Assembly: GCF_002157835.1 (NCBI RefSeq) | Contig: NZ_CP020809.1 | Location: 7,440,001 to 7,504,000 of the forward strand | Direction: 5' to 3' | DNA: 64,000 bases | From: Mycobacterium dioxanotrophicus | Lineage (GTDB): Bacteria; Actinomycetota; Actinomycetes; Mycobacteriales; Mycobacteriaceae | In this document: piece after piece, positions 24,959 through 53,638 of the stretch | How the letters are laid out: every line of letters starts with the position of its first letter | How positions within the stretch are numbered: position 1 is the first letter of the stretch | The notes under the pieces: model-generated | Seen by the model: the letters and a program-made list of their open reading frames with translations, nothing else | Database searches by the model: none | Told to the model about the DNA's origin: nothing | Translations under genes and position numbers: made by a program

Positions 24959-25487
24959 TTTCTCCTCCGTAGCGGGTTGCGAAGATCTGGGCCCGGGCCG
25001 CGTCGGACTGTTCGGGCGTCGGCAGGTTGAGATCACGGGTCAGGAAGTCGCGGGTCGCGAAATCGTCGTGCCCCTGTTCTCGCATCCCTTCGAGCATGAA
25101 CGAGTACTGGGCCGAGCGAGCGTCCTGCGTCGCCAGTTCGGCGATCACGAGAATCTCGTCGATGAGGTCGGATTCGGTCATGTTGACGGCCTTGGGCGAC
25201 AAGTCGATCTGCTGCACGCGGCCATCCATGTACGCGGTGACCGTCACCGTCCCGGGCGGGTTGGTGACGCTGAAGATCGGCACGTCGGGTTCGTCGGTCT
25301 CGACGTCGAGGACATCGAGAGCGGTGAACTCGGTCTCGACGTCGTCGGACCCCGATGGGGCGCCGACCTGCACGTCGAGGTCGGCATCGTCGTCGGGTTG
25401 CTGGTCCGGGTACGCGAAATCGATCGCCGAAAGGATGTCCTGATCGTCGTCTTCGTAATCCCGGTCGTATGGCGGAGACTCACCCAC
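24951..25487 (-). CDS. espH: EspH, ESX-1 associated acidic protein
   Basis: The product is 178 aa, very acidic at the N-terminus. The core aligns with M. tuberculosis EspH through FSVTNPPGTVTV, a DGRVQQIDL-type strand and the near-terminal LNLPTPEQ and IFATRYG. EspH was shown in M. marinum to be needed for EspE and EspF secretion, whose genes lie just upstream. The GTG at 25487 lies 14 bases after the espG1 stop. It is cytosolic, with no signal or TM. Confidence 0.85.
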   Translation of the reverse strand: MGESPPYDRDYEDDDQDILSAIDFAYPDQQPDDDADLDVQVGAPSGSDDVETEFTALDVLDVETDEPDVPIFSVTNPPGTVTVTAYMDGRVQQIDLSPKAVNMTESDLIDEILVIAELATQDARSAQYSFMLEGMREQGHDDFATRDFLTRDLNLPTPEQSDAARAQIFATRYGGENG

Positions 25488-33335: not shown

Positions 33336-34235
33336 CTACGCCGGTATCCGCGACAGAATCTCCAGAGCAATCGATTCCGCGCTCTCACCGAGATTGGCGC
33401 CCATCAAAGCGAGGTCGACGACGACGTTCGCCTTGGCCACGACCACCCGTGTGCTGACGAACAGCGGTGAATTGTCCATCGTCGCACTCACCAGCACGAT
33501 GGACGGATTCCGGTTGCCGTGGGTGACCGGCCCCACCGTGTAATGCGAGGTGGGCGTACCGTCGTCGAAGGCAACGGACACCGGGCCTGCACACCCGCGC
33601 CATTTTGCCTCGACATCGGCGACGAGTCGGCTTGCGACAGACGGGTTTTCGTAGAGCACCACGCGCTGCTCGAGACCACCGAGGCCGACCTTCTTCATAT
33701 CCCCGACCAGGTTCACGTTCCGGGCGAAGGTCGCGATGACATCGCTGGGAACGTATACCTCGGTGCCGCCGCCGAACAGCGCGGACACGCACTGCGGTGG
33801 GGTGACGGTGATGCCCTCCGATCCGTTGAGTGCCGTGCTGTCGGTCGTCTTGTAGTCGTTGGCGGCGTTCGCCAGCCGCTTGACGTCGTCGAGGGACAGC
33901 AGAAAGCCGGCCAGCTGCGACGGGCTGACGGGTTCCGGCACGCTCAAGGTCGGGGTGGTGCTCGTCGACGTGGTCGTCGTGGTCGCCGCCGGCCCGGCCG
34001 ACGGAGCGCTGGAATCGCCGGGTATGACCAGCCAGATCACCAGCGCTGCAACGCAGATCACCACCACGGCGGCCAGCGCCGCGAGGATCACGCCGCGTCG
34101 CTTCCGGCGCGGTGGTGGCTGCGGGGTGGGCGCCGGGATGACCGGCGGTCCACCGTACGGGGGCTGCCGGCCCGCGGGATAGCTGCCGAACGGCGCCCCA
34201 CCGAACGGGTCCTCTGGTCCTCCCGGGTATGTCAC
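33336..34235 (-). CDS. Single-pass protein with extracellular PknH_C-like sensor domain (paralogue 1)
   Basis: The 299-aa product starts with GTG at 34235, one base after the stop of paralogue 2. The cytoplasmic tail has DPFGGAPFG and prolines, then an Arg/Lys patch, one TM at about residues 48-70, a Thr/Ser linker and a PknH_C-like domain with two cysteines (PPQCVS and WRGCAG). Such domains in mycobacteria sit outside the membrane and likely sense ligand or cell-wall state. It is the last gene of the GTPase cluster. Confidence 0.75.
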   Translation of the reverse strand: MTYPGGPEDPFGGAPFGSYPAGRQPPYGGPPVIPAPTPQPPPRRKRRGVILAALAAVVVICVAALVIWLVIPGDSSAPSAGPAATTTTTSTSTTPTLSVPEPVSPSQLAGFLLSLDDVKRLANAANDYKTTDSTALNGSEGITVTPPQCVSALFGGGTEVYVPSDVIATFARNVNLVGDMKKVGLGGLEQRVVLYENPSVASRLVADVEAKWRGCAGPVSVAFDDGTPTSHYTVGPVTHGNRNPSIVLVSATMDNSPLFVSTRVVVAKANVVVDLALMGANLGESAESIALEILSRIPA

Positions 34236-34236
34236 G

Positions 34237-35250
34237 TCAGCCCGGAATCTTGTCGAGGACGTTGTTGACCGCCCTGATGTTCTGGTCGGTCAGATCCGCT
34301 CCGACCATCTGCACGTCGACCAGGACATTGGACTTGGCTCCGATGGCCCGATAGATGCCGGTGGTCGAACCGATGTTGGTGTTGTGCACACCCGTCACGG
34401 CGCCGCTGTTCTCGGGTGCACCGAGGATGAACTTGGACCACTTGGCATCCTGGACGATGGTCCATGTCAACGTCTTCCCTGCGCACTGCTGCAGAAGCCC
34501 GATGTAATGGGACAGCGTCTTCTGCGCGGCGGCGGCGTCATCGAAGACGGCCACACCGATGCCGGCCTGCGTGTTGCCATGGGGCCCCGAGGCATTCACC
34601 GACAGCACCGAGCGGTAGCCGCTGTCCTTGTACGGCTCCGGGGTGAACGAATTCATCGACACCACGCATTCCGGCGGGTCGAAGGTCTGCACGGACGGAG
34701 ATACCACGCCCACCTCGTCGCCGTTGCCCGCGTCGGTCAGATCCGGCGTGTTCATGAGCTGACGCATCTCGTCCAGGCTCGGCAGCAATCCGGCCATGCC
34801 CGCGGGAGTGACCGGTGGAGGTGGCGGCGGGGGCGGTGGCAGCGGGCTCGTGGTGGTCTGCGCCGAGGTGGTCGTCGTGGTGGTCTGTGCAGCAACGGTT
34901 TTCGACTCGGAAGCCGGCGGTTTCACCGCGATCCACACGACCAGGCCGACCACGGCCGCCGCGATGAACGTGTACGACAGGGCCACCCCGATCAGGGCAC
35001 GGTCGTGGCCGCGCTGCCCGGTGCGCTTGACCTGCGACAGGCCGAGATGGCCCAGCACCGCGCCGATGGGAGCGAATACGAATGCGAACACCACCGAGAG
35101 CGTCGCGAAGGTGTTGACCTCGCCGGACGCTGACGGCGGTTGCGGCGCAGCCGGAATGACGGGCGGACCGCTGTAGGGCGGTGGCGGAACCGACGGCAGC
35201 TGGCCGAACGGCATCCCGCCGAAGGGGTCGTCCGGAGGTGGATAGGTCAT
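34237..35250 (-). CDS. DUF4190 protein with extracellular PknH_C-like domain (paralogue 2)
   Basis: The 337-aa product starts at the ATG at 35250, which overlaps the upstream stop as ATGA; the longer open frame upstream is antisense noise. The N-terminal tail reads DDPFGGMPFGQ. A DUF4190 two-helix segment (NTFATLSVVFAFVFAPIGAV) at about residues 46-105 is nearly the same as in the gene at 8697. A Thr/Pro-rich linker follows and then the sensor-like domain with cysteines in PPECVV and LQQCAG. Function unknown. Confidence 0.75.
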   Translation of the reverse strand: MTYPPPDDPFGGMPFGQLPSVPPPPYSGPPVIPAAPQPPSASGEVNTFATLSVVFAFVFAPIGAVLGHLGLSQVKRTGQRGHDRALIGVALSYTFIAAAVVGLVVWIAVKPPASESKTVAAQTTTTTTSAQTTTSPLPPPPPPPPPVTPAGMAGLLPSLDEMRQLMNTPDLTDAGNGDEVGVVSPSVQTFDPPECVVSMNSFTPEPYKDSGYRSVLSVNASGPHGNTQAGIGVAVFDDAAAAQKTLSHYIGLLQQCAGKTLTWTIVQDAKWSKFILGAPENSGAVTGVHNTNIGSTTGIYRAIGAKSNVLVDVQMVGADLTDQNIRAVNNVLDKIPG

Positions 35251-36134
35251 GTCAGATCGCCGATCCGGGCCAGTATTTCCGCGGTGATCGTCTGCGCCCC
35301 ATCGCCGAAATTGCCACCGAACACCGCCACATCGACCAGGACATTGTTCTTGGCGGCGACGACCCGGACGTTGCGGAAGTTGGGAACACCCGGTGTATCG
35401 GTCACGATGCTGCTCAACACCACGATCGACGGATCCTGCGGTGAGCGGGCCAGAGGGTCCACCTGGTACTTGATCCAGTTCTTGCCGTTGTTCAGCGTCT
35501 CGGTCAACAGGCCCACGCACCCACGCCACCGATTCGCGATGTCTGCGGCCTGCTTGGTTGCCGCAGGCGCGTTCGGGTACAACACCACTCGCTCTTCGAC
35601 CCCGCCCAGCTCGGTCGTGGTCAACGGGTCGGGCAGCACGATCGATCGCGAATACGTGGCCGTGGCACCGCTGTTCACGAATACCTCACCGGCGCCGGTG
35701 AACAACGCCGAGCGACAGTTGTCAGGCTGTGTCGCAACCCCTTCGGAGGCGTTGAACTGCTGCTTGTCGGTGACGGTGTAGGCGGTGCTCGTCGCGTCCG
35801 TCGCGCGCTTGGCCTCGTCCATGCTCAGCAGCAAACCGGGCAGTCGAGCCGGAGTCGCCAGCGCCGGTGCCGCCGTGGTGGTCGGTGTCGATGTGGTCGT
35901 CGAGGCCGGACCCGCTGCCGGCGTGCTCGGCGACTCGGGCATCACGGCCCACACCACCAGCGCCGCAACGGCTATGGTCACGATCCCACCGACAGCCGCC
36001 AGCATCACGACGGTCTTGGTTCTGCGCGGCGGCTGCTGCTGCGGGGGCTGAGCAGGTGCGGAGATGATCGGCGGACCATCCGGTGACTGACCGAACGGCG
36101 CCCCGCCGAACGGATCCCCCCAACCCTGCGTCAC
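35247..36134 (-). CDS. Single-pass protein with extracellular PknH_C-like sensor domain (paralogue 3)
   Basis: I chose the GTG at 36134 (MTQGWGDPFGGAPFG), two bases after the stop of the GTPase gene, over the longer open frame. The product is 295 aa. It has the DPFGG tail, a Pro/Gln-rich part, one TM at about residues 40-65, a Thr-rich linker and a domain with two cysteines (PDNCRS and WRGCVG). It is more like paralogue 1 than paralogue 2, so an internal duplication is likely. Confidence 0.75.
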   Translation of the reverse strand: MTQGWGDPFGGAPFGQSPDGPPIISAPAQPPQQQPPRRTKTVVMLAAVGGIVTIAVAALVVWAVMPESPSTPAAGPASTTTSTPTTTAAPALATPARLPGLLLSMDEAKRATDATSTAYTVTDKQQFNASEGVATQPDNCRSALFTGAGEVFVNSGATATYSRSIVLPDPLTTTELGGVEERVVLYPNAPAATKQAADIANRWRGCVGLLTETLNNGKNWIKYQVDPLARSPQDPSIVVLSSIVTDTPGVPNFRNVRVVAAKNNVLVDVAVFGGNFGDGAQTITAEILARIGDLT

Positions 36135-36136
36135 CC

Positions 36137-37294
36137 CTACAGCACCCCGAAGCTCGACGTCACCCACCGCACAGGGTCAGCACACCGGAACGGGGCGATG
36201 CCCCGCGAATGCAGCCGGTTGCCGCTGGGCGGCTGCCCCAACGCGGACACGACGAAATAGCGGTTCTGCAAACGCATTCCGTTAGACGGGTTTTCGACGG
36301 CGGCGACGATGGAGCCGGCATTGAGCCGCGTCAGCAGGCTGCGTACCTCTTCGTGCATCAACTGCCCACCGACCTCGTCGTACTGCTGGCTGTCGGAGGT
36401 GTCCCGCAGGTAGGCCGCGCCCGCGTTCGACATGATCAGGCTCCACTCGGAACCCTCGACCTCCCGCAGCACGCGTAGGGCATCGAACTTCGAGAGGATC
36501 ACCGCGAGCTTGGGCTGCCCCGGCGCCACCGCCATCGTCACGTTGTTGAGCACCGATCGCGGGTCGCCACCGCTGAACAGCTGGGCGGGCAGCAGATCTT
36601 GCAGCTGATCGCGAATTGCCTTGACCCGCAACGGGTCGAACATGAAGAACACCGCGTCGGCATTGGCGAAGAACCGGAACGGCGGCGTGTGCAGATCACC
36701 GGACTCCATGTCCTCGCCTGCCACATCGCGCAACACCAGGAACCGCCGTACGCCGTGCCAGATGCCGATCGAGAACATCAGCGGTTCACGCTGCGTGGAG
36801 GCCTGGGTGTGCACGGTCGGGGTCGGCGGGATCAGCCCGCGCTGCACGTACAGCGGTGTCTCGTAGTTGGTCGCATAGGCCTGCGCGGTCGCGCGGGTGA
36901 CCGGCTCCATCGACACCCCGAGCCGTTCACACAGCAGCTCAAGCTGTTTCACCAACACACCGATGTACAGACTCTTGCCGGTGGCACGGGCCCCGGCCAT
37001 GGCGATGCAGATGGCGTGCCCCTGCCGCCAGCCCTCGGGCAACACGTAGTGGCAGACCGGGCAGATCTCGACCGCCGGGCCCTGCAGAGCTCGGCTGGCC
37101 TCCGCGGTCGGCGGCGGCGGGCCGTTGTAACCCGGCGTGCGGGTCCAGGTGTAGAGCGGGCCGCAGTCGGCCGGCGCCCCCAGATACGCCGTGGCGACGT
37201 CGTCGCGGTAGCGCGTGCCGCCGGCCTGAGCGGACAACGTCCACAGATGCTGGTTCGGATTGAGCGCCGAAAAACAGCGCGGGCATTTGCTCAT
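36137..37294 (-). CDS. Zinc-ribbon GTPase (double-GTPase-2 type), cluster NTPase
   Basis: The 385-aa product has two CxxC pairs, in MSKCPRCF and EICPVCHY, that should form a split zinc ribbon. The P-loop is AGARATGKS near residue 100. DVAGED near 190 would be the switch-II motif and SKFD near 264 the base-specificity loop. This fits the double-GTPase-2 class of GTPases known mainly from computational studies of multi-gene NTPase systems. The ATG at 37294 lies within the 32-bp repeat. It follows the vWA gene by 31 bases. It may be the motor or switch of the cluster; catalysis is inferred. Confidence 0.72.
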   Translation of the reverse strand: MSKCPRCFSALNPNQHLWTLSAQAGGTRYRDDVATAYLGAPADCGPLYTWTRTPGYNGPPPPTAEASRALQGPAVEICPVCHYVLPEGWRQGHAICIAMAGARATGKSLYIGVLVKQLELLCERLGVSMEPVTRATAQAYATNYETPLYVQRGLIPPTPTVHTQASTQREPLMFSIGIWHGVRRFLVLRDVAGEDMESGDLHTPPFRFFANADAVFFMFDPLRVKAIRDQLQDLLPAQLFSGGDPRSVLNNVTMAVAPGQPKLAVILSKFDALRVLREVEGSEWSLIMSNAGAAYLRDTSDSQQYDEVGGQLMHEEVRSLLTRLNAGSIVAAVENPSNGMRLQNRYFVVSALGQPPSGNRLHSRGIAPFRCADPVRWVTSSFGVL

Positions 37295-37321
37295 GCGCGA
37301 TCCGCCTCCGGCTCCTCGCTG
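37290..37321 (-). repeat. 32-bp dispersed repeat, copy B, at start of GTPase gene
   Basis: This segment matches 19505-19536 with one difference in 32. It includes the start codon of the GTPase gene at its low-coordinate end and separates it from the vWA gene. Both complete copies lie immediately 5' of a P-loop NTPase gene on the minus strand. Confidence 0.6.
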
Positions 37322-37325
37322 AAAC

Positions 37326-38255
37326 TCATGGGGCCAGGGCCTTCGCCAGCGACGCTGTGATCCGGTCCAGCACAGGCGGATGCGCCAGCAACTCGGCCGT
37401 CGCCTCGTTGCCCGGACGCGGCGCCGGGAGGCGCGCACCCGCGGCATCGAGCCTGCGGTCGTTGGACAGCGCGATGACCGGAAACCGTTGCCGCACCGCA
37501 CTTGTGGGGTAGTCCGCGCAGACCACCACGCGGGAGCGCCCGGGTGCCAGCCGGGACCAGCGGGCGCCTGCCGACCAGCGCGGCGTCGCCCGCCGAAGCG
37601 CCTCGCCCAGTTCCGCACTGCCCGTCGCGGTCACCGGGACCACGTCCGCACCCACGAGGACCGCCGATATGTTGCGCACACCCACCGCGTCGGCGACGCC
37701 GACCACGATCTCGGTGGCCGCCACCACGCTGCCGTCCGCGAACCAGCTACGCATCGAGGCCGAGGTGTCGAACGCGATCAGCACCGCACCGTCGGACTCG
37801 CCCGGCCCGCGGCCGGTGATCTTGCGCGCCGAGGTGCGGGCGGCGGTGGCCAGGGGGCTCAGCTGGGTATCGGCGACGGCGCTGACCGAGATGTCGATCT
37901 GTGTGCCGTCGGGGGTCAGCTTGGCGAACGTCAGCCCGGTGTCACCGCTGACGTCGATCGGGTCGAACATCACCTGGACCGGATCGACATCACCGGGATT
38001 GTCGTGGGCAATCGCCAGATGGATGACCGTCCCGCTGCCGAACCGGTCGGTGCCCACCGGGCGCACCGCGACCATGACGGGGCCGGTGAGACTGGGCAGC
38101 AACGCCTGATGCGCGCTCGAGCGCACCACCGGCTGATCGGGTCCGCCATGCACCTCGAGCGCGGCACCGCCGACGGCGCCGGTGATGGCCACCGACAGCG
38201 CCTGGCTGGGTATCTGCACCCGCTGGTTGCGTGCATTCACCACGTAGATCGGCAT
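37326..38255 (-). CDS. Cytosolic vWA-domain protein
   Basis: The 309-aa product has an N-terminal beta-rich part (TerD-like in feel, but not assigned) and then a vWA domain with MIDAS DTSAS near residue 163 and a likely Thr/Asp later. No signal or TM is seen. Such vWA proteins bind Mg2+-dependent partners and are often paired with MoxR or GTPase modules. The start shares one base with the upstream stop (TGATG). Confidence 0.72.
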   Translation of the reverse strand: MPIYVVNARNQRVQIPSQALSVAITGAVGGAALEVHGGPDQPVVRSSAHQALLPSLTGPVMVAVRPVGTDRFGSGTVIHLAIAHDNPGDVDPVQVMFDPIDVSGDTGLTFAKLTPDGTQIDISVSAVADTQLSPLATAARTSARKITGRGPGESDGAVLIAFDTSASMRSWFADGSVVAATEIVVGVADAVGVRNISAVLVGADVVPVTATGSAELGEALRRATPRWSAGARWSRLAPGRSRVVVCADYPTSAVRQRFPVIALSNDRRLDAAGARLPAPRPGNEATAELLAHPPVLDRITASLAKALAP

Positions 38256-40741
38256 CAGCGACTCCCCCGCAATCGGGCCGCCAGCGACGGCTGTGCGTCA
38301 TAGCGCCGGGCCAGCAGCCTGCCCACCATCTTCCGGTACCGCCGCACCGTGCCGTCCGAGGCATCCCCGGACAGCTGTGTCATCAGCATCGTCACCGCGT
38401 CGACGTCGCTCTCCTCACCGGGCATGCCCGCCGCCACGCGTTCGGCCAGCTGCCCCATCAATTGATCGATCACGTCCAGCTGCTGCTGGGCATCCTCGGC
38501 CGACGCGACACGCAGCAGCGTCACCGCCAGCACCGCCTGCGGCGCCACCTCGTAGCCGTCGACCAGCGGCGTCACCCGCGCGATGGCCTCGCCGCCGAGA
38601 CCGGAATCAGCCGCCAACGCCGCACAGGCCTGCGGGTAGGGCTGGCCGGCGACGACGCCCAGCAACGCGAACGTCAGCATCCGCACGGCGAAGTCGTGGT
38701 GCACGGCGCTGGGCTCGGTAGTGGCCAGCACCTGCTCCCAGAACGGCAGGTAGGCGCTTTGGTGGGTCTCCACATACCGCTGGTGCATCCACATCTGCGG
38801 TTCGATGTATCGCACTGCCGCACAGGCCACGGCCGTGCTGTCGCCGTTACCGTCGATCACCCGGCCGGCCAGCTCGGTCAGCGCAGGCGAGTCCGGCGCG
38901 CCCACCAGTGTGCGCACGGTGCCGGCCCCGGTGATCGGGTCGGCGCCCAACGCCAGCAGGAGGTCGGCCGGGTCCCACACCGACTCCGCGACGGCCTGTT
39001 CGAAATGCGGGGACGCGGTCGCCCGCAGCCACCACAGCTGCGCCCCGGAATCACCGGGCTCGACCGATCCGCGCCGGCCGGCCCGGATACCGCGCAGCGC
39101 CGCCCGGATCCAGGTCGGGTCCCACGGGCTGGCGTGGGCCAACTCGTCGGCACCAGGCAAGGGTGTCGCATCGGCCAACCAATCGAGCAGGTTGTCGCTG
39201 ATCGCGGTGCCCTCGACATCGCCACCGGCCCGCAGCAAAGCCGCGCCGATCGCCAACCTGCCGTCGACGTCGACGCGTTGACGCATCTTCGGGCCGCGCG
39301 CCGGATCGTCGAGGTGCGGCACCACGTCGTCGAGCAGGGCGGGGGCGAGCCGGTCGTCGTCAACCCCGGCCCGCAGCAGCAGTTCGATCACCCGAAGCTC
39401 ACGTTCGGGACCTTGGTCCCGGGCCGCGGCAAGCCCGGGGCCGATGGCCGACTGCACCTGTGAAGGCGTTGGTTTCCCGTGAAACAATCTGTGCCCCAAC
39501 GGGATTGGCCCGAGTTGGCCGAGCCACGTGTCATCGGTGATGGCCCGGCTCAGATACGTCGCATCGGCGAAATCGGCGGCGGGTCCGTCGGGCAGTTCCT
39601 GTACCGCACGCCAGGCGTCGGCGGTGCTGGTGCCGACGACCGCCGACAGCACGTCGGCGATGGTCTGCGCTGCCTGCGACCCGGCCGGGACATCCGGAGG
39701 CGAGTGGGCGGCGATCACCTCGTGTGCCTCTTCGACAGCGTCAGCAAATTCCGGGCGGCCGGCCACCACCATGGCCGTCGGCCAGGCGGGGTGCAGGCCC
39801 TCGTCGTTGACCTGCTCGGCGATCCGGTCGATGTCGTCGAGCAACCGCCGCGCCGAATGTGGTTCCAGCAGCACCACCTGGGCCATCGCCGACAAGTGCG
39901 TGGCCTCGATGGTGTGCCCGCGTGCGGTCTTGTGCGGCTCGCCGTCGAGCTCGCCCATCGATACCGCTTCGGTCTCGCTGATCACGACCACGCCTGCCGG
40001 CACGGCATCCAGATCACCGATCGGCACGGCCGTCAGCAACTGGCCACTGTGCAACGCCAGCATCACCTGGTCGGCCCGGTCGAACGTGGAAAAGCTCAAG
40101 CCCGCGGCGGTTCCCGGTGACATCAGAAAGCTCACCAGCCCGATCCACTGCGCAGCCGATTCGACCGACTCCGCACCGAGGACCACCGGTGCGCCGCCGT
40201 CGAGCGCCCCGGCCACGGCATCGAGCAGCGCGAACAGCGTCGCCAGCCGCCAGGTGGTGGTGTCCAGCGCGAACGCCACCACGCTGTCCTTGGTCACGAC
40301 CGTGCCCGGCTCGGGTGGGCTGTCGGGAATCGTCGCCCTGCTCACCGCCGCCGCGCCGTACGGACGGGCCCACTGCGGCGAGCGCCACCACTGGATCGGC
40401 CGCCGCCGCGGCGAAGACAGCGGGGTGCGGTCCAGCACGACGTGGGCGAACACGTTGCCGGGCCGGCCGGTGCTGTCGGACCCCGCGGGCACGGTGTGCC
40501 AGTACCCCGTACCGGTTTCGACCCTGCCGTAGGCCAGCCGTCGCGGTCCCTGCTCGAGCTGTTCGGGTGTCGGATAATCGGGCAGCGGCTGCACCGGCCG
40601 GAATACCGTGCGGACACCGGCGATCAGCTGCTGGGTCTCTTCCGGCGTGAGGTCGCCGGTCGTCTGCTTGACCTGCCAGCCGCCGGCCGAACCGACAGCA
40701 TCGAACGACGTGTAGGCCAGCTGGCCATAGCGTGAGGTCAT
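38255..40741 (-). CDS. GTPase-associated protein 1 (GAP1-like)
   Basis: The 828-aa cytosolic product begins YGQLAYTSFD and continues with GWQVKQTTGDLT, typical of the GAP1 N-terminal domain. A middle domain with ALDTTTWRLATLFALLDAV and a long helical C-terminal region follow. In computational surveys GAP1 proteins occur beside double GTPases, vWA proteins and other NTPases; the biochemical role is unknown. The N-terminal Met is coupled to the upstream gene by ATGA. Confidence 0.72.
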   Translation of the reverse strand: MTSRYGQLAYTSFDAVGSAGGWQVKQTTGDLTPEETQQLIAGVRTVFRPVQPLPDYPTPEQLEQGPRRLAYGRVETGTGYWHTVPAGSDSTGRPGNVFAHVVLDRTPLSSPRRRPIQWWRSPQWARPYGAAAVSRATIPDSPPEPGTVVTKDSVVAFALDTTTWRLATLFALLDAVAGALDGGAPVVLGAESVESAAQWIGLVSFLMSPGTAAGLSFSTFDRADQVMLALHSGQLLTAVPIGDLDAVPAGVVVISETEAVSMGELDGEPHKTARGHTIEATHLSAMAQVVLLEPHSARRLLDDIDRIAEQVNDEGLHPAWPTAMVVAGRPEFADAVEEAHEVIAAHSPPDVPAGSQAAQTIADVLSAVVGTSTADAWRAVQELPDGPAADFADATYLSRAITDDTWLGQLGPIPLGHRLFHGKPTPSQVQSAIGPGLAAARDQGPERELRVIELLLRAGVDDDRLAPALLDDVVPHLDDPARGPKMRQRVDVDGRLAIGAALLRAGGDVEGTAISDNLLDWLADATPLPGADELAHASPWDPTWIRAALRGIRAGRRGSVEPGDSGAQLWWLRATASPHFEQAVAESVWDPADLLLALGADPITGAGTVRTLVGAPDSPALTELAGRVIDGNGDSTAVACAAVRYIEPQMWMHQRYVETHQSAYLPFWEQVLATTEPSAVHHDFAVRMLTFALLGVVAGQPYPQACAALAADSGLGGEAIARVTPLVDGYEVAPQAVLAVTLLRVASAEDAQQQLDVIDQLMGQLAERVAAGMPGEESDVDAVTMLMTQLSGDASDGTVRRYRKMVGRLLARRYDAQPSLAARLRGSR

Positions 40742-42879: not shown

Positions 42880-42880
42880 G

Positions 42881-45520: not shown

Positions 45521-45522
45521 CG

Positions 45523-48500
45523 TCAGAACGTCCCGCCGTCGGGGATGACCACCGAACCGCCGACGTCGTCCAGGAACGCCGCGGCACCGGCCTGCTCGCC
45601 GCGGGCGAGCGCGTCGGCCTCCCGGTTGACCAGCTTGATCAGCACATCGGTGGCCCAGTACACGTCCGGGGCGACATCACGGAAGATCGGCGTCTTCGAT
45701 GCCTTGGACCGCGTGGTGATGGTCGTGAACGCACCGTCCGGGGTGGCTCCCGGGGTGTCGGCGGGCAGGTACTGCGCGGCGACGTCGCGGACACTGCCCA
45801 GCCAGGTCTCCGCCGCGGCACGGCGCTCCTCTGGAGTCTGAGCGGCCGCGATCGGGCCGATCCGGGAGGTGACGCCCTGTCCGGAGGCCCCCGACCGCAG
45901 GAAGTCCCGCAGCAGGCCGGCCGCCGACAACTCGACGATGCCGCTGGCCGGGTCCTGGCTGTGCGAATCGTAAAGCTCACGCAACACGCTGTAGGGCCGC
46001 AGCGACCGCATCACCGGCGGCTCGTGCGACGTCGCGATGGCCAGCAGGATGCCCTCCAGCACTGCGGGCAGCCAGTCGTAGGACGCGGTGAACGCCGACG
46101 GCGGGGTGAGCAGCGGGTTGGGGAACGCCAGCCACTGGTTGTCGGCGCCGTCGTAGATGCGGACGGGGTCGTTGTACGGCGAGGCCGGGATCTGAATGCG
46201 GCCCAGGATCTGGCCGAGGAACCAGCCTGCGGCCATGGTGCGTCGCTCGTCGTCGGTCATCGGCAGCGACGCCGACAGCGGCCGCGAGCGCCGGTACCGC
46301 CAGAATTGGCCGCGGCCCGGTCCGGCGGTCTGCGCCCACTGTTGCGCGGCAGGCTTGAGCACCGAGTCGAACGCCAACGGCGAGTAGTTGGGGTACGAGC
46401 CGAAGATGTCGATGCGGGTGACGCTGTCCTCGTCGGACAGCGAACGGCCGTAGTTGTCCTTGGTGGCCTGGTCGATGCGCGGGTTGGCGCGTAACACCTC
46501 GGCCAGCGCGTCGGCCACCGGTTGCCCGGCGAACGGCACCTCGGAGAACTTGTACCGGTACTCGACCTGCTGGCCGGGGTGCACGCGTTGAAGCGCCTGA
46601 TCGTTGACGCTGGCCAGCGGGCGGGCCAGCGACAGCGCCTCGTTGAACTTGGTGGCGATGTCGCGGCGGCGCGTGCTGATCTCGGATTCCGCGGCGCCGA
46701 CACCCTGCACGTAGTCGCGCAGCGAGACCCGGCAGAACTCCTCGAACGCCTCGCCCGGCCGGCCCACGTAGAGCCGGGCACGCGCCAGCAGTTCGGCGGG
46801 ACGGGTGTGAATATCGAACTGCGCCATGGCCGGAACGCGCGGACGACCCGTTTCCGGGTCGGTGCCCAGCGCCCGGGTCACCCACGTCGAGGTGACCTCG
46901 GTCAGCCCGCCGGGTGCCGAGACACCGCCGGTGGTCTGCCACTGCCCCAGGATCACCCGGGTGCTGGCGTCGTCGACGGCGGTGCGCAGCGGGATCATCG
47001 CGTGCGCCCCGGCGACCGCCTTGGGTAGGTCGGTCTCGTAACGCTGCTTGAAGGCCGCCGAACTGATCAGCAGCACTTCGTTGTTGGCCTCGGCGAAGCG
47101 GGCGGGCACCAGCTCGTCGGAGTCGGCGGGCCAGGCCACGTACTGGTCGGTGGACAGCCGCGCCAGGCCGACGTCCGACGGCGGTTCGGCGCGCGCCTTC
47201 TCCAGCAGGATCATCGCCTCGCCGAGCGAATCACGCAGCGGGGCAAGCAGTTCGGCGCCCATCACCCGCATCACGTCGGCGATCCGGGCGGCCGCATCGG
47301 CGTAGAGCTGGCGACGCACCGAGGACCGGAACCCGTCGAGCGCCATCGCCAGCACCTGATCGGCGTTGGTCATCACGCCGCGCAGGGACCGCAGCGCGGC
47401 GTCGACCTGCGGGGGCACGGCGACGATGTCGGGCGGGCCCATCGCGCCCAGTTGCGCGACGCCCGGCGCCAGCACGTCGTCGATGTGCCTGCGCAACCGG
47501 TCGACGAGCTCGCGGGCGTACGGCAGGCCGAGAGTCGCCGCGGCCGCGCCGACCACCTGCTCGAGGTGCTCGGCGAATTCGCGGTGCCAGCTGTAGGCCA
47601 TCGCGTAGCCGATCTCGGCGCAGGTGCGGGCCAGGTCGGCCCGCCGGTTGAGCACCGCCTGACGGAAGATCGGTACCCACTGCTCGGCGGCCATGCCCTG
47701 CGGATTGGGCAGGAAACCGCGCAGCTGCCGTTCGATCAGATTGTTGACCGCACCGGCGACGGCCTCGGGAGCGAACGCCCCGGTTGCGATCCAGTTGCCC
47801 AGGATGCCGACCCGGGTCTGCTCGTCACCGGCCGCGTCGGGGATCCGGAGCTCACCGCAGTGGGTCTGCCACTGGCTGCTGAGCAGCGTGTCGAGCTGCT
47901 CGTTGCTGGATGCCGGGTTGCCGTGCTGGATGTGACCGAACAGCAGCTTGTCGGCTGCACTGCGGGCCAACCGCTGCGCCGCGTACTCGGCGTACCGATC
48001 GCGGCCCATGCTCAGGCTGGAGAAACCATAAGTGCCCCAAGGCAATACATCCCATGACGAGATGCCCCAGCCGAGCACGTCGCGGTCGCCGACGGGCGAG
48101 GCGGTGTTGCCGAGGTCGTAGGAGACGAACTGATCGCTGGCTTTGCCGCTCATCATCAACCCGGCCAGACCCCGCGCCAGGCCGCGGTACACGGCGTTCT
48201 GCGAGCCGTCGCCGAACAGGGTGCGGTCCGCACCGATGTAGCGGCCGACCGGGAACACGCGCGCGAACGGGATGGGCTCGCCGTCGCCGTGATGCTGACC
48301 CAGCGCCCGCAAGATCCGCACGTCGTGCTCGCGGGCAGCCCCGGCCTGGCTCGCCACGATCTCGCCCAGCATCGCCAGGGCGTTGGCGCGCACGCCGGTG
48401 CGGGCGCTCTCCGGCAACGAGTCGAAGATGTCGGGCGTCACCATGAAGACACCCATGAGCTTCGGGTCGAGTCCGGTGACCAGGGTCAGCAGCCGGCACA

Positions 48501-49074
48501 CGTCGAGCGCCATCGAGGCACCCGCACCGCCGGCCATCGACGACACCACCAGCACCAGCGGTGGCTCGTTCGGGTCGAACCGGCCCATGCCGGGCACGCT
48601 CGCGTTGGCCATCTCCGAGATGGTCTCGACCCGGAACAAGGTGTCCCAGGCCGACTGCAGCCGGGCGTGGATCTCGCTGGCCTTGCTCAGCGTGATCATC
48701 CGGCCGATCGCGCGGTACTGCCCGGCGCCGGCCGAGATCGGGTTGGTCACCTCTTGCGGATTGCGCGGCGCCCAGGTGGCGATGGTGTCGAGCGCACCAC
48801 CCGCGGCCAGCCGCTGCGAGAGCGCCCCGTCGAGGATCGCGTAGCTGCTGCCCTGCGGACCGCAGCCGATGTAGCTGCCGCCCTGGGTCGGCACGTTCGC
48901 CAGCCCCTCAGGTCCGGACTCCGCCGCGCTCGGGACGTCGATGTGCACGAATTGCCAACCAGCCAAAAGCTTTTCGATGCCGGCGGCGTGCAGCTCAGAA
49001 CGCAGCTGGTCCATCATGAACGCCAACGTGGCGCCACCCGAACCACCGCATCCGACTACCAGGAATCGACGCAT
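45523..49074 (-). CDS. Giant tubulin-like (Tubulin_2-type) GTP-binding protein
   Basis: The 1183-aa product opens with FLVVGCGGSGG, a nucleotide-binding loop at the end of the first strand. The tubulin signature-like loop SSMAGGAGASMA lies near residue 180, in place of GGGTGS. The first 450 residues would form the tubulin-like core, while the remaining 700 are helical and of unknown fold. No TM is seen. Proteins of this type are annotated as tubulin-like in actinobacteria and proteobacteria and have not been shown to polymerise as far as I know. The start overlaps the vWA stop by one base. Confidence 0.72.
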   Translation of the reverse strand: MRRFLVVGCGGSGGATLAFMMDQLRSELHAAGIEKLLAGWQFVHIDVPSAAESGPEGLANVPTQGGSYIGCGPQGSSYAILDGALSQRLAAGGALDTIATWAPRNPQEVTNPISAGAGQYRAIGRMITLSKASEIHARLQSAWDTLFRVETISEMANASVPGMGRFDPNEPPLVLVVSSMAGGAGASMALDVCRLLTLVTGLDPKLMGVFMVTPDIFDSLPESARTGVRANALAMLGEIVASQAGAAREHDVRILRALGQHHGDGEPIPFARVFPVGRYIGADRTLFGDGSQNAVYRGLARGLAGLMMSGKASDQFVSYDLGNTASPVGDRDVLGWGISSWDVLPWGTYGFSSLSMGRDRYAEYAAQRLARSAADKLLFGHIQHGNPASSNEQLDTLLSSQWQTHCGELRIPDAAGDEQTRVGILGNWIATGAFAPEAVAGAVNNLIERQLRGFLPNPQGMAAEQWVPIFRQAVLNRRADLARTCAEIGYAMAYSWHREFAEHLEQVVGAAAATLGLPYARELVDRLRRHIDDVLAPGVAQLGAMGPPDIVAVPPQVDAALRSLRGVMTNADQVLAMALDGFRSSVRRQLYADAAARIADVMRVMGAELLAPLRDSLGEAMILLEKARAEPPSDVGLARLSTDQYVAWPADSDELVPARFAEANNEVLLISSAAFKQRYETDLPKAVAGAHAMIPLRTAVDDASTRVILGQWQTTGGVSAPGGLTEVTSTWVTRALGTDPETGRPRVPAMAQFDIHTRPAELLARARLYVGRPGEAFEEFCRVSLRDYVQGVGAAESEISTRRRDIATKFNEALSLARPLASVNDQALQRVHPGQQVEYRYKFSEVPFAGQPVADALAEVLRANPRIDQATKDNYGRSLSDEDSVTRIDIFGSYPNYSPLAFDSVLKPAAQQWAQTAGPGRGQFWRYRRSRPLSASLPMTDDERRTMAAGWFLGQILGRIQIPASPYNDPVRIYDGADNQWLAFPNPLLTPPSAFTASYDWLPAVLEGILLAIATSHEPPVMRSLRPYSVLRELYDSHSQDPASGIVELSAAGLLRDFLRSGASGQGVTSRIGPIAAAQTPEERRAAAETWLGSVRDVAAQYLPADTPGATPDGAFTTITTRSKASKTPIFRDVAPDVYWATDVLIKLVNREADALARGEQAGAAAFLDDVGGSVVIPDGGTF

Positions 49075-52000
49075 CAGGCTCCTCCACCAAAGGGGTCGAA
49101 CGGATCAGAGTCATACCGCTGAGGCGGCGCGGGAGGCGGGCCACCGCGCCGGTCATCGGGCGGGGGCTGCTGTTGCTGCGGCGGCTGCTGTTGAGGCGGC
49201 TGCTGCGGCGGGTACCCGCCCGGCTGGTAGGTGATGGGCGCCTGCTGGGTCACCTCATATGGGTCCGGCGGAGGCGGGTTGGCGCCCGGCCGGTAGTTCA
49301 CCGGGGCGTGCTGGGTCACCTCGTGCGGGTCGGGCGGACGCGGGGTCGGCGGGGCGGGCGCCGCTCCCCCGCCACCGAACGGATCCGCACCCTGCGGAGC
49401 CTGAGCGTGGGAACCGACCGGAGCCATCGGCGCCGGACCGCCCCCGCCACCGAACGGGTCATAACCCGTCGGGGCACCCCCGCCGGCGCCCTCGCCGAAC
49501 GGTGAGCCGCCCTGCCCCTGATCGTCATACGGCGAGGCCTGCCCGGCCTGCACCGCACGCAGGCGTAGCCCGTTGAGCAGCTCGGGCAGTCGGCGGGCCA
49601 CCTCTTCGAAGATCTTCTCCCTGGCGGCGGTGTCGGTGTTGCCGCTGACCAGCAGCAGCACCTCGGCCTGTGAGGACGGTCCGCGCGGATCGTGCAACAC
49701 CACCCAGGTGTTGTGCACGGCCAGCGGCAGCACCGCATGCAGCCCCGTGCCGTCGGTGCCCGGCAGCTCCGAACTCACGCTCAGCAGGTTGCCCGCGTCG
49801 ACCACGACGCGGCCTGCGCCGAACGGGCTGCGGCCCATCACGGCGTTGAGGGTGACGCCCAGCACCGACAGCCGCCGAACCCCGTCGGTCAACCCGGTCA
49901 CCGGCTGCACGAGATCGGTTTCGGCCATGGCGAACGGTTCCCCGTTGCGCAGCGTCATGTCCTGGTTGACCTCGACGGGGATGCGCTCGGCCAGCAGCGG
50001 GGTGTTCGGGATCTTGGTCACCCACCACTTGGACAGGTACAGCAGGCCCAGTGGGATGCCCGGGCCCAGCAGCAGCGCCGCGATCAGCACCAGCACGAAA
50101 TTGGTGGTGTTCAGCGGCTTGAGCAGCGAGGCCACGAACGGCACGTCGACAACCTGCCCGTCGTCGGGGTGGTCGAGCGCCGCGACGTGCACGGGCACCG
50201 TGCCGTTGAGGCCGCCGTGGCCGTCGTGCTCGGTGCGCAGCGTGACCTGCAGCTGCCCGGTCTGTCCTTCCTCGACCTTGAGGCAATTGCTCGACGAGTT
50301 GGACGGCGACGTCAGGGTTGGCGTGCCGATGTCGTCGGGGCTGGCCGTGGTCTTGATGGCTTCGCCGTCGGCGATCCACGCACAGCCCGGGCCGGTGATG
50401 GCCAGTTGCGCCGTCACGCCCTTGGCCGCTTGCACGGTGCCGAAATCGATGCGCTCACCCGGTGTGGGCAGCCCGAGCTTCGGCAGGATCTGCACGGTCT
50501 CGGTCTTGTCCTGCGGCGAGAGTTTGGTGCCAGGGGCGATCTGCACGCCGGCCGGGTCGATGGCCGGCGCCGTGGTGACGACGAGGGACATCTTGAGCGT
50601 TGCGCGGCCCGGGTTGACCTTCGACAGGTCGGCTTTGACCGGCTTGCCGATGTCCTCCTTGGCCGCCGCATCCAGCAGCGAGATGGGTTCCTTGCCGTCG
50701 GGCACCAATTGGACCGTCATCTCCGCGGTGCCGGCCAGACTGTCGGTCGGCACCGGCTTGCCCTTGGCGTCGACCAATCCGAAGGTCAGATCGTCGACGG
50801 TCGCGCCGCTGCGCCACTGGACCTTGTCGGCCTTCAGCAGCGCCGGGAAGATGTCGGTGCTGATGTGGATGTTGACCTTCGACACCGCGTCGGCATGCTC
50901 GCCGGTGGTGTCGACGTAGACGATGGCCCACTGGCCCGCCCACTCGCCGCTGCCCGCGTTGTTGATCGCGATGGACTGCGCAGTCTCGGACTGCCATTCG
51001 TAGCTGACCGGCGTGCCACCGACCTCGACGTTGACCTTGCCGTCCTTCTTGGGCAGCTCGACGGTCTGTCCCGACGGTGACACCAGGTACGGGACGACGC
51101 CCGTCACATCACCCGAGCCGAGGATGTTCACCGACTTGATCGACTTGTCCAGCACGAAGTTGTGTCGCGCCTCCGGGCACACCTGCAGCTGGCACACCGG
51201 GCCCTGGGTGTTGATGCCGGGATCCGGGGTCAGCGAGTCGAAGGCGAACAGCATGTCGTCGATGTTGGACACCGGATAGAAGTCGCCGGGCACGGGATCG
51301 GTGATGTTGCCGCACTTCATCCCGTTCAGACCCTTGCCGGTGGCGATCGCGCTCATCACGTCGAAGTCGGCGGGCGTCTCCTTGGCGCCCAGACCGACGG
51401 CCAGCGTCACGATCTCGGCCGAACGGATCTGGTCGGCCAGCCCACCCGCGCGGCAGATCGAGTCGATCGACTTCTGTTTGGCTGCCTCGACGCCGGCCTG
51501 CGTGCTGAGGTCCACCCCCTCGGCATACGGCTTGGTCACCTGGCGGGGAGTGAAGTCGATCTGACCGTCGGAGAACCACGCGATGGCCTGGCAGCGCTGC
51601 CCGCCGTTGGGGCCCTGCCCGCGTGCGGCCAACGCCTGCCGCGCGCCGTCGAGCGCTTGCCAGTAATCGGTGTCCAGACCGTTGTTCTTCGATTTGATCT
51701 CGTCGAGCTGCTGTGCCGTCGAGTCGGCGGTCGCGGCGGTGAGCTCGCTCCAGTCGTGTTCCGGCTTATAGGTGTCGGAGAATCCGGCGGCGGCCACATC
51801 GAGCTTGGCGTCGACCCGGTCGGCGTAGCGGCCAAGGGTCTGCAACAGATAGCGGGCGGCGTCCACCCGGGCGCCGTCGGGGTCGGTCTGCTGAAGGCTG
51901 CCCGATTCGTCGAACAGCAGCAGCAGGTCGCCCGTCTTCTGGGCGGCCAGGCACGCGCCGAACCGCTTTGCCCCGCCAGAGGCCGTTTCCGCCGAGGCGA

Positions 52001-52091
52001 CCGGCGCCCAGCCCATCAATACGACCGCCGCGGCCAGCACGGCCGCGACGGTGAACCTCATGGTCCTCGACCTGGTGATCCCCCGAACCAT
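49074..52091 (-). CDS. Exported, membrane-anchored vWA protein with DPFGG-rich cytoplasmic tail
   Basis: The 1005-aa product begins with a signal peptide ending near VASAE. The vWA domain has MIDAS DESGS near residue 60, paired cysteines and an Ig-like extracellular region (about 330-650). One TM lies at about 662-684, then a cytoplasmic part of about 320 residues with a folded piece and a Pro/Gln-rich tail with several DPFGGG and PHEVTQ repeats. It links outside to inside. The start at 52091 lies three bases after the previous stop; ATG 52061 is an alternative. Confidence 0.72.
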   Translation of the reverse strand: MVRGITRSRTMRFTVAAVLAAAVVLMGWAPVASAETASGGAKRFGACLAAQKTGDLLLLFDESGSLQQTDPDGARVDAARYLLQTLGRYADRVDAKLDVAAAGFSDTYKPEHDWSELTAATADSTAQQLDEIKSKNNGLDTDYWQALDGARQALAARGQGPNGGQRCQAIAWFSDGQIDFTPRQVTKPYAEGVDLSTQAGVEAAKQKSIDSICRAGGLADQIRSAEIVTLAVGLGAKETPADFDVMSAIATGKGLNGMKCGNITDPVPGDFYPVSNIDDMLFAFDSLTPDPGINTQGPVCQLQVCPEARHNFVLDKSIKSVNILGSGDVTGVVPYLVSPSGQTVELPKKDGKVNVEVGGTPVSYEWQSETAQSIAINNAGSGEWAGQWAIVYVDTTGEHADAVSKVNIHISTDIFPALLKADKVQWRSGATVDDLTFGLVDAKGKPVPTDSLAGTAEMTVQLVPDGKEPISLLDAAAKEDIGKPVKADLSKVNPGRATLKMSLVVTTAPAIDPAGVQIAPGTKLSPQDKTETVQILPKLGLPTPGERIDFGTVQAAKGVTAQLAITGPGCAWIADGEAIKTTASPDDIGTPTLTSPSNSSSNCLKVEEGQTGQLQVTLRTEHDGHGGLNGTVPVHVAALDHPDDGQVVDVPFVASLLKPLNTTNFVLVLIAALLLGPGIPLGLLYLSKWWVTKIPNTPLLAERIPVEVNQDMTLRNGEPFAMAETDLVQPVTGLTDGVRRLSVLGVTLNAVMGRSPFGAGRVVVDAGNLLSVSSELPGTDGTGLHAVLPLAVHNTWVVLHDPRGPSSQAEVLLLVSGNTDTAAREKIFEEVARRLPELLNGLRLRAVQAGQASPYDDQGQGGSPFGEGAGGGAPTGYDPFGGGGGPAPMAPVGSHAQAPQGADPFGGGGAAPAPPTPRPPDPHEVTQHAPVNYRPGANPPPPDPYEVTQQAPITYQPGGYPPQQPPQQQPPQQQQPPPDDRRGGPPPAPPQRYDSDPFDPFGGGA

Positions 52092-52094
52092 CCC

Positions 52095-52661
52095 CTATAA
52101 CCTGCCTGCCCACAGAGCGATCTGCCAGGCGCCGATGGCGATGCCGACGAGGCACACCGCCAACACCACCCAATACAACGTTGTCGTCCAACCTGGCGCC
52201 GAATAGATGAACTCGGTCCTTCTGCGGGTGTCCACCCGGGTGTAGAGGGCCAGCGCGCCGATCGCGATGGGGCCGGCCAGCAGCCACCCGGCCACCGCGG
52301 TCGGCCAGCCGAGCCCAAGGACCGCGCCAAGGATGCCGACGATGACGCCGAGCAACGCCAGTCCCAGCGCCACCGCGAACCAGACCAGCGGTGGGCCTGC
52401 GGTTTGCAGCGTTGCTCCCGGTGCGACGGCGGCGGGCTGACCGAACGCGTCGACGGCGCCGTAGTTACCGGTATCCGGCGCGGCGCCGAACGCGTCCTGA
52501 GGCTGCGTGTGCTGTGTGCGCGGTTGGCCCGGAGGTTGCCCTGCCCACGGGTCGAAACCGCCGGACTGCGGCGCCGACGGCGCACCGGCCGGTGCGCCCT
52601 GCTGGCTCGGCCGCTTCGGTGGCCCGAAGTCGCTGAAATCGAACGGGTTCGGATTGCTCAT
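52095..52661 (-). CDS. Small multi-TM protein with Pro/Gly tail
   Basis: The 188-aa product starts at ATG 52661 (MSNPNPFDFSDFG). A cytoplasmic tail with the NPFDFSDFG and FDPWAG motifs leads to about four TM helices (residues 85-188), much like other DUF-type small membrane proteins of mycobacteria. It lies directly before the exported vWA gene. The longer upstream frame is not supported. Confidence 0.65.
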   Translation of the reverse strand: MSNPNPFDFSDFGPPKRPSQQGAPAGAPSAPQSGGFDPWAGQPPGQPRTQHTQPQDAFGAAPDTGNYGAVDAFGQPAAVAPGATLQTAGPPLVWFAVALGLALLGVIVGILGAVLGLGWPTAVAGWLLAGPIAIGALALYTRVDTRRRTEFIYSAPGWTTTLYWVVLAVCLVGIAIGAWQIALWAGRL

Positions 52662-52867
52662 GACCGCCCCAATCCTCCGTTCTGCGATCCGGTCATCCAG
52701 GCGTCGGCGACCGCGCGAATGCGTCGGCAGCAGCCCGCTGTGGTTGCTGTGAACACCGGTCGGGCGGCATTGCACGACTCTATCGGAGACATCTCGACTC
52801 GGACCCCGTCAGCTAACTTCCGCCGGAGCGGTCGCAGCGGTCCGTTCGCATCCGCGCGGAACCCATG

Positions 52868-53638
52868 TCAGCCGCGGTAAGGCGAGATGCAGGCGAAGAT
52901 CGTCTGGTCCGCATCTGCGATGAATTGGTCTGTGCACACGTTGGTCGGTGCCACCTTGTCGACGCGATAGATCCCCGGGATCGCGAGGCACGCCGACCGC
53001 ACCATCGTGACGGCCTTGGCGTCGGGGTTGTTCGGAGAGGCCCCATGCTCCTCTATCTGAATGCAGTCCCCGGCCCGCAGATCGGTGACGTGGACCTGCT
53101 GGGGCTGCGGCGGAGGGGGCGGCGCAGGCACCGTGGTGCGCGTCGTCGACCGCTTGGTGGTGGTTTTCGACGTGCTGGTCTTCGATGTCGTTGTGGTGGT
53201 CGTCGTAGTCGAGGACGACGAGTCGTTCTTGTTCAGCACCAGGAACACGACAAGCGCGATGATCGCCACGAAGATCATCAGGTAGGACACTGTCAGACCG
53301 ATCAGGGCGCGTTCACGGCCCTTCTCACCGGTCTTCTTGATCTGTGACAGCGCCAGATGCCCGAGTACCGCACCGATGGGCGCGAAGACGACGCCGAAGA
53401 CGATCGAAAGCGTTGCCAACGCGTTGGTCTGACCCGACTGTGGGCCGGGCGGTGGTCCGTATCCCGGCGGCCCCGGCGGATAGCCAGGAGGGGGCCCCTG
53501 CGGCGGAAAACCGGGCGGACCGCCCGGTGCGCCGGGAAATCCCGGTGGACCTGCGGGAGGAAAGCCTCCGCCTTGTCCGGCGAACGGATCATTGCCGAAC
53601 GGACCTGTCGGGCCACCCCCGTACCCGCCGTATGTCAT
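52868..53638 (-). CDS. DUF4190 protein with LppU-like extracellular domain
   Basis: The 256-aa product has a Gly/Pro-rich tail with NDPFAGQGGG, a DUF4190 two-helix part at about residues 73-132 and a Thr/Ser linker. The end domain (VTDLRAGDCI, then AVTMVRSACLA, NVCTDQ and IFACIS) resembles LppU/septum-formation-type domains and has four cysteines that should pair outside the membrane. It is separated from the rest of the cluster by 206 bases and could be the first gene or its own unit. Confidence 0.7.
   Translation of the reverse strand: MTYGGYGGGPTGPFGNDPFAGQGGGFPPAGPPGFPGAPGGPPGFPPQGPPPGYPPGPPGYGPPPGPQSGQTNALATLSIVFGVVFAPIGAVLGHLALSQIKKTGEKGRERALIGLTVSYLMIFVAIIALVVFLVLNKNDSSSSTTTTTTTTSKTSTSKTTTKRSTTRTTVPAPPPPPQPQQVHVTDLRAGDCIQIEEHGASPNNPDAKAVTMVRSACLAIPGIYRVDKVAPTNVCTDQFIADADQTIFACISPYRG

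Follow-up and report, generated by a model that had tools for sequence, protein, structure and literature searches.

What is the function of a row of genes that encodes a tubulin-like protein, a GTPase, a GAP1 protein and several otherwise unrelated membrane proteins, and what holds these proteins together? We asked this for a locus of Mycobacterium dioxanotrophicus. The window, that is, the whole stretch of DNA analysed, is 64,000 nucleotides long (assembly GCF_002157835.1, contig NZ_CP020809.1, positions 7,440,001 to 7,504,000 of the forward strand). Twelve consecutive open reading frames lie on its minus strand at 33336-53638, each with a start and a stop codon and no internal stop, confirming the twelve genes of an earlier reading of this DNA (the original prediction). 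They form an eight-gene core and four mycobacterial accessory sensors. Judged from its sequence, the locus is the actinobacterial tubulin theme of GAP1-N2/DO-GTPase systems, which has already been predicted computationally. What is new, and was not found in our literature search, is a short tag in the tails of its membrane proteins, together with candidate recruits encoded elsewhere. We propose, with a probability of roughly 0.55, that the tag serves as a recruitment label, by which membrane proteins would join a tubulin scaffold at the membrane under the control of GTP; we infer the reader of the tag and the biological output.

Ten of the eleven junctions between the genes span -4 to +31 bases, and the first one, from the DUF4190 gene to TM2, spans 206 bases. 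The overlaps named in the original prediction are present, TGATG at both 49074 and 38255, and ATGA at both 40738 and 35247. The starts of the TM2, FN3, GTPase, Pk1 and Pk2 genes were refined to the coordinates given here. In the order of transcription, the genes and the tags are as follows.

52868..53638, minus strand: DUF4190 membrane protein, 256 residues, N-terminal tail with NDPFAG, mycobacterial accessory (Pfam DUF4190, E 7.6e-12)
52095..52661, minus strand: TM2, core gene 1, N-terminal tail with NPNPFDFSDFG..GGFDPWAG, followed by some three hydrophobic segments (by eye)
49074..52091, minus strand: vWAex, core gene 2, with a signal peptide (by eye), a vWA domain with DxSxS, one transmembrane segment (by eye), a predicted cytosolic region and a tail with three DPFGG
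49084-49097, 49372-49385 and 49447-49460, minus strand: the three DPFGG tags in the vWAex tail
45523..49074, minus strand: Tubulin_2/FtsZl1 protein, 1183 residues, core gene 3 (Tubulin_2, E 7.7e-47)
42881..45520, minus strand: M2TM, core gene 4, made up of an alpha/beta domain at the N-terminus, a pair of hydrophobic segments (by eye) that have long helices, and a C-terminal part
40738..42879, minus strand: FN3 adaptor, core gene 5 (fn3, below cut-off with E 0.028), HRDC-like in an N-terminal segment (by eye)
38255..40741, minus strand: GAP1, core gene 6 (Pfam GAP1-N2, E 6e-19; GAP1-M, E 1.1e-8)
37326..38255, minus strand: vWAcyt, cytosolic vWA-like protein with DTSAS (by eye), core gene 7 (Pfam vWA-TerF-like, E 0.28)
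36137..37294, minus strand: DO-GTPase, core gene 8 (DO-GTPase2, below cut-off with E 1.3e-4), Cys pairs of zinc ribbons seen by eye
35247..36134, minus strand: PknH_C sensor (Pk1), N-terminal tail with DPFGGAPFG, accessory (PknH_C, E 1e-26)
34237..35250, minus strand: DUF4190 and PknH_C sensor (Pk2), N-terminal tail with DPFGGMPFG, accessory (Pfam, E 2.9e-27 and 2.3e-9)
33336..34235, minus strand: PknH_C sensor, N-terminal tail with DPFGGAPFG, accessory (PknH_C, E 5.7e-26)
34198-34211, 35216-35229 and 36103-36116, minus strand: the DPFGG tags of the three PknH_C sensors

The tag has a [D/N/S]P[F/W]G-like consensus and is found in the tails of otherwise unrelated membrane proteins of the cluster. 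The N-terminal tails of the three PknH_C sensors share the tandem form DPFGGxPFG, and the C-terminal tail of vWAex carries DPFGG three times. The signal peptide and the positive-inside rule, applied by eye, suggest that these tails are cytosolic. The DNA pattern of DPFGG matches 22 times in the 8.08-Mb source genome, and the reversed control matches twice. The locus, with its 20 kb, holds six of the 22 matches (binomial probability about 2e-11), each of them in frame and in a tail; by eye, most of the other sixteen look to be out of frame. When genome contigs were scanned with a profile, 108 loci encoding a relative were obtained, and the best 80 of them plus the window make up our set of 81 loci, in which core genes were assigned with a simple gene caller and iterative profiles. 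It could be argued that the shared motif is functionless low-complexity drift, since Pro/Gly-rich tails are common in actinobacterial membrane proteins and are shared among related genomes. The tails are in fact compositionally biased, but shuffling each tail with its composition preserved does not reproduce the motif. In 56 loci (63 with both tails, before dereplication), [DNS]P[FW][GADS] was seen 87 times in TM2 N-terminal tails against 5.0 expected and 139 times in vWAex C-terminal tails against 4.9 expected. The motif is present in 47 of the 56 loci for TM2 tails, and likewise in 47 for vWAex tails, and the two kinds of tail are non-homologous. The density of [DNS]P[FW] in one tail correlates with that in the other across loci (rho 0.54; 0 of 1000 permutations, which ignore phylogeny). 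DPF alone and NPF alone are also correlated between the tails (6 and 3 of 1000 permutations, phylogeny again ignored). Counted per family, the motif was seen 87 times against 4.2 expected in TM2, 184 against 11.6 in vWAex, 34 against 1.8 in DUF4190 proteins and 10 against 0.5 in PknH_C proteins. It is about two-fold enriched in GAP1 and M2TM, and no enrichment was found in tubulin, FN3, vWAcyt or the GTPase.

Controls outside the operon were also examined. The source genome has 16 PknH_C matches: three in the operon, three elsewhere with a related tag, one with DPWP/QPWA and nine untagged (two of the loci read, L138 and L139, look misread). The three tagged ones outside the operon are a pair at 2.60 Mb (DPFGT, SPFDPSPFDG) and a gene embedded in the ESX-1 locus (NPFDAQPFGG). 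Nine DUF4190 matches in the same genome comprise two in the operon, three that are the tagged PknH_C genes outside it, two untagged and two unreadable. DUF4190 matches in 12 tubulin-less genomes numbered 46, and 30 of them were taken; four yielded no hit and were excluded, and the 26 rows scored correspond to 22 distinct proteins, as four proteins appear in two rows each (tails L192/L199 and L200 are doubtful). No strong motif was seen in 21 of these 22, and most of their tails are of the GYPPP-rich type, a bias that fits drift.

The tag was also followed across 148 congeneric genomes (labelled G000 upward), 14 of which have the tubulin. The DPFGGxPFG DNA pattern occurs in eight genomes, all among the 14 tubulin-positive ones, and in none of the 134 tubulin-less ones (hypergeometric probability 6e-10, calculated as though the genomes were independent, although they are not). 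No congeneric genome matches the control, the reversed pattern. Absence from all 134 tubulin-less congeners speaks against drift, as does the distribution of the four-helix family described below, and we regard drift as quite improbable. Twelve of the 17 DPFGGxPFG matches are on the tubulin contig, two are on contigs that appear to continue the operon (G117:C182, G021:C39), and three are elsewhere. The latter are a DUF4190-like gene in G108 and a gene for an unrelated four-helix membrane protein in each of G128 and G102. No operon genes were seen near the four-helix gene in 9.0 kb of the 25.5-kb contig of G128 or in the whole 5.2-kb contig of G102. In both genomes (L163, L164) this gene adjoins a UDP-glucose 6-dehydrogenase-like gene (by eye).

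Relatives of the four-helix protein were then sought in the 148 genomes with the membrane region alone, the tags having been removed. The family was found in six genomes at E < 1e-15, and all six are tubulin-positive (2e-7 under independence). All six C-termini end in DPFS or DPFQ, and all four complete N-terminal tails have DPF. In five of the six genomes the four-helix gene and the tubulin gene lie on different contigs, and in G090 the four-helix gene is about 5 kb upstream of the tubulin. A database search that scored the 8000 best candidates gave eight four-helix relatives, one of which is the G102 protein. All eight end in DFDPFS, and the seven that have an N-terminal tail carry several DPF each. 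Even P0260, which is 40% identical over 35% of the query, keeps DFDPFS at its extreme C-terminus. The family was found through the tag and co-distributes with the system; thus, the tag predicted a component.

A different explanation of the same tails is that they are multivalent stickers, which self-associate like FG-repeat proteins into a membrane condensate and need no dedicated reader. Several copies of the tag in one tail would suit such a role. What flanks the aromatic residue changes from lineage to lineage (DPF, NPF, GFG, PWG), which would be expected if nothing but an aromatic within Gly/Pro surroundings counted; several Gordonia have NPF in both tails, Corynebacterium L096 has GFG in both, and others diverge. 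However, Asp/Asn-Pro is kept over long distances, as in NPFDFSDF at TM2 N-termini and in DFDPFS of P0260, and this suggests a specific pocket. We consider stickers without a reader an unlikely explanation.

Several observations weigh against the recruitment label. No protein was identified as the tag reader, and our literature search found no experimental paper on any core component. GFG, SPF and PW, each taken alone, show no significant correlation between the tails (83, 444 and 564 of 1000 permutations), and the motif is replaced by GFG or PWG, or is absent, in several corynebacteria and a few others. Among the control DUF4190 proteins, 1 of 22 has DPFA and four more have a weaker xP[F/W]. 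The tubulin-positive genomes are related, so that the counts are not independent, and six of the 14 do not have the tandem form. In a family-wide draw of 251 genomes, whose tubulin status was not determined, the tandem form was found in the source genome only; the tandem form is therefore mycobacterial. A confident four-helix relative is missing in eight of the 14 tubulin-positive genomes, including the source genome. One untagged four-helix match (E 9e-4) is in the tubulin-less G067, and it is regarded as a chance match.

Taking these together, we propose the following mechanism. The tails would be cytosolic, and through the tag on them membrane proteins would dock on one shared component in the cytosol. 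This component may be one of the proteins that do not carry the tag: the GTPase, vWAcyt, FN3, tubulin and perhaps GAP1. The DO-GTPase/GAP1 pair would be a switch that lets tubulin assemble under the membrane, and this assembly would gather the vWA and PknH_C domains outside the cell into patches. The patches may sense or remodel the envelope, and this output is the least certain step. In eukaryotic endocytosis, proteins are recruited to a scaffold at the membrane through DPF and NPF motifs, which are short Asp/Asn-Pro-Phe sequences within disordered tails. The likeness is an analogy only and no homology is claimed; neither an adaptor-appendage domain nor an EH domain appeared in our Pfam scans. 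We tentatively suggest an actinobacterial protein-sorting code, in which DPF/NPF tail tags might mark unrelated membrane proteins, some of them encoded far off, for a GTPase-controlled tubulin scaffold. New sensors would join by gaining the tag, in the way that tail motifs let eukaryotic adaptors gather their cargo. If so, linear tail motifs would sort membrane proteins to a cytoskeletal scaffold, which is uncommon in bacteria. Sequences of bacterial FtsZl1/Tubulin_2 machines have been described since 2010. With a tag that tells which membrane proteins belong to it, the orphan operon would become a testable machine, and the tag points to candidate components whose genes lie outside the operon.

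A DnaG primase-like gene (by eye) adjoins tagged DUF4190/PknH_C genes in the source genome (the pair at 2.60 Mb, C1:2604976-2606848, L168; DPFGT and SPFDPSPFDG) and in G108 (C11, L166; MDPFGGQPFGG). A protein with a single transmembrane segment and the N-terminal tail SPFGSNDPFGQ adjoins tagged sensors in G118 and G021 (L170, 9369-10583, minus strand; L167, 5851-6855, plus strand), and it is a further candidate recruit.

Besides the tag, the gene content itself is conserved. Loci were found in Mycobacterium and its allies, Rhodococcus, Williamsia, Gordonia, Nocardia and Corynebacterium, and also in Propionibacteriaceae, Microlunatus, Arthrobacter, Brevibacterium and Microbacteriaceae. R. jostii (L090) is among the Rhodococcus that have the operon, and C. 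glutamicum, one of the control genomes, has matches to both PF13809 and GAP1-N2. In the 81 loci, TM2 was assigned in 64, vWAex in 70, tubulin in 76, M2TM in 75, FN3 in 74, GAP1 in 68, vWAcyt in 65 and the GTPase in 66. The original prediction had named a failure of the genes to co-occur in other genomes as the result that would speak against it, and they do co-occur. The same eight genes stand in the same order in 55 of the 81 loci, including the window, and in all 14 tubulin-positive congeneric genomes GAP1-N2 is on the tubulin contig, about 7.5-8.3 kb away. Two of the remaining loci have an extra GAP1 match after the GTPase and 24 are incomplete, a class that pools contig ends, miscalled genes and real losses (L038 yielded no genes); a reordered core was found in none of the 81. 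That the eight core genes keep one order in loci across Actinomycetota shows the cluster to be more than chance. These results support the original prediction of an NTPase machine that is encoded by several conserved genes and has parts both outside and inside the cell. The four sensors had been counted as part of this machine, and the tags support that they belong to it. They are not core genes, as PknH_C/DUF4190 genes were found in 28 of the 81 loci, namely the window and 27 loci titled Mycobacterium, Mycolicibacterium or Mycolicibacter. One locus titled Mycolicibacterium sp. (L083) has no sensors in the stretch covered, has NPF/DPF tails, and its tubulin is just 50% identical; transfer or a mislabelled record may explain it.

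The original prediction had called the system undescribed, but it has been described computationally by Makarova and Koonin in 2010 (PMC2875224) and by Kaur et al. in 2020 (PMC7159879). The text of Kaur et al. gives the actinobacterial tubulin theme as a single tubulin with a helical domain, an FNIII-HRDC protein, a membrane vWA-FNIII protein, GAP1 and a zinc-ribbon GTPase (PMC7159879). The present locus shares with it the zinc-ribbon DO-GTPase, GAP1-N2, one tubulin with a large helical region, a putative FNIII protein (a weak match here), a membrane vWA protein and the linkage of the genes. Unlike the text description of that theme (its figure 6 and source data may show extra genes), it has M2TM, TM2, the PknH_C/DUF4190 sensors and the tail motif. 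GAP1-N2 was also found in 13 further congeneric genomes that do not have the tubulin, and these probably represent the other themes of Kaur et al. In the text of Makarova and Koonin, the tubulin is named FtsZl1, has vWA and GTPase partners, and is proposed to act in membrane remodelling (PMC2875224). A study of 2023 describes Tubulin_2 proteins as divergent FtsZ-like homologues (PMC9871819). Our locus resembles FtsZl1/Tubulin_2 operons, as described there, in having Tubulin_2 beside a conventional FtsZ (one PF00091 gene elsewhere in the source genome), vWA and P-loop GTPase partners, and the proposed membrane remodelling. It differs from those described in PMC2875224 in that neither an OmpA-like gene nor a kinase turned up when the twelve genes were scanned with Pfam.

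Domain assignments in the operon differ in strength. Tubulin_2 (160.7 bits, cut-off 27), GAP1-N2 and GAP1-M (68.9 and 35.6 bits, both with cut-off 24), PknH_C in three proteins and DUF4190 in two are over the curated Pfam cut-offs. DO-GTPase2 is significant yet scores 22.1 bits, below its cut-off of 27, with the motifs intact. Similarly, VWA_2 in vWAex has E 1.8e-4 and 22.5 bits (cut-off 27), with DxSxS intact. The identity of vWAcyt comes from its weak match and from DxSxS by eye. TM2 has no Pfam match, and in the FN3 protein the Pfam scan gave no HRDC match beside the fn3 hit. The GTPase motifs GARxxGK, DVAGE and SKFD are invariant in 18 aligned sequences, and the Glu in Walker B, a trait of the GTPase in the tubulin theme, is present; the Cys pairs of the zinc ribbons (by eye) are missing in some corynebacteria. 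The original prediction would also have been contradicted by a lack of NTP-binding folds in the GTPase and the tubulin-like protein, and these motifs, together with the tubulin fold seen by model comparison, support it.

The tubulin is 99% identical to proteins of Mycolicibacterium brisbanense and Mycobacterium aquaticum, to which the host is closely related. Its predicted structure aligns with most of CetZ, FtsZ and tubulin, and the two-domain architecture is present. This model suggests a CetZ-like two-domain fold with a large helical insertion, whereas Kaur et al. describe the helical part as a C-terminal fusion to tubulin (PMC7159879). Makarova and Koonin could not identify T6-H7 or an FtsZ/tubulin-like C-terminal domain (PMC2875224), which differs from the extent of our alignment. 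If the model is right, the FtsZl1/Tubulin_2 family would have both tubulin domains in full, with a large helical region inserted, and would not be a truncated relative. Its nucleotide motif is a variant, GGAGAS, invariant or nearly so, in place of the canonical GGGTG[ST]G, and T7 is unaligned. Profile comparison of the Tubulin_2 protein with FtsZ of the same genome gave no match. The M2TM model has a mean predicted local distance difference test score (pLDDT) of 83.5. The best-ranked structural matches of its alpha/beta domain are small GTPases, at a borderline Z of 8.4 and with no P-loop by eye, and Foldseek gave only weak matches, mostly pore-former and helical. Kinship of M2TM to the DO-GTPase was considered, and profile comparison gives no support for it.

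The output of the cluster could be conflict: a defence-like system that senses an invader and releases an effector. This is compatible with recruitment by the tag, as it concerns the output. The text of Kaur et al. groups GAP1-N2 systems with NTP-dependent conflict systems and considers a possible equivalence to VMAP systems (PMC7159879). On the other hand, Pfam scans of the twelve genes found no known effector domain (nuclease, protease or other), and the core content is fixed and not variable. Ten of the twelve proteins were scanned with PADLOC defence profiles (all except TM2 and the product of the DUF4190 gene at 52868), and the seven core proteins among them had no match, although a missing profile does not exclude defence. 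We therefore consider a conflict function possible but somewhat doubtful.

The original prediction also linked the cluster to ESX-1, and the window does hold an ESX-1 locus with EccB, EccE, EspB, EccA1, EspG and others. Regulation of this neighbouring secretion system would fit the distance of 26 kb between EccB and tubulin in the source genome (G000) and in G108, as well as a tagged protein inside the ESX-1 region. The latter is a DUF4190 and PknH_C protein with the N-terminal tail NPFDAQPFGG (8697-9704, plus strand), about 24 kb from the operon, and its gene is a possible tagged recruit. However, adjacency could be judged in six of the 14 tubulin-positive genomes, the other eight contigs being uninformative, and the cluster is adjacent in two of the six. 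EccB and tubulin are on one contig yet 0.56 Mb apart in G099, 1.9 Mb in G074 and 1.1 Mb in G118, and the tubulin contig of G061 has no EccB despite about 71 kb downstream of GAP1. The core is also found in Arthrobacter, Brevibacterium and propionibacteria, which are not known to have ESX-1. The link is thus not borne out: ESX-1 adjacency is a local feature, and regulation of ESX-1 by the cluster is most improbable. The source genome has seven EccB genes, and thus several ESX loci. In the window, EccA1 is represented by two overlapping open reading frames, 23232-23888 and 23885-25036, both on the minus strand, which are the AAA part and the N-terminal domain.

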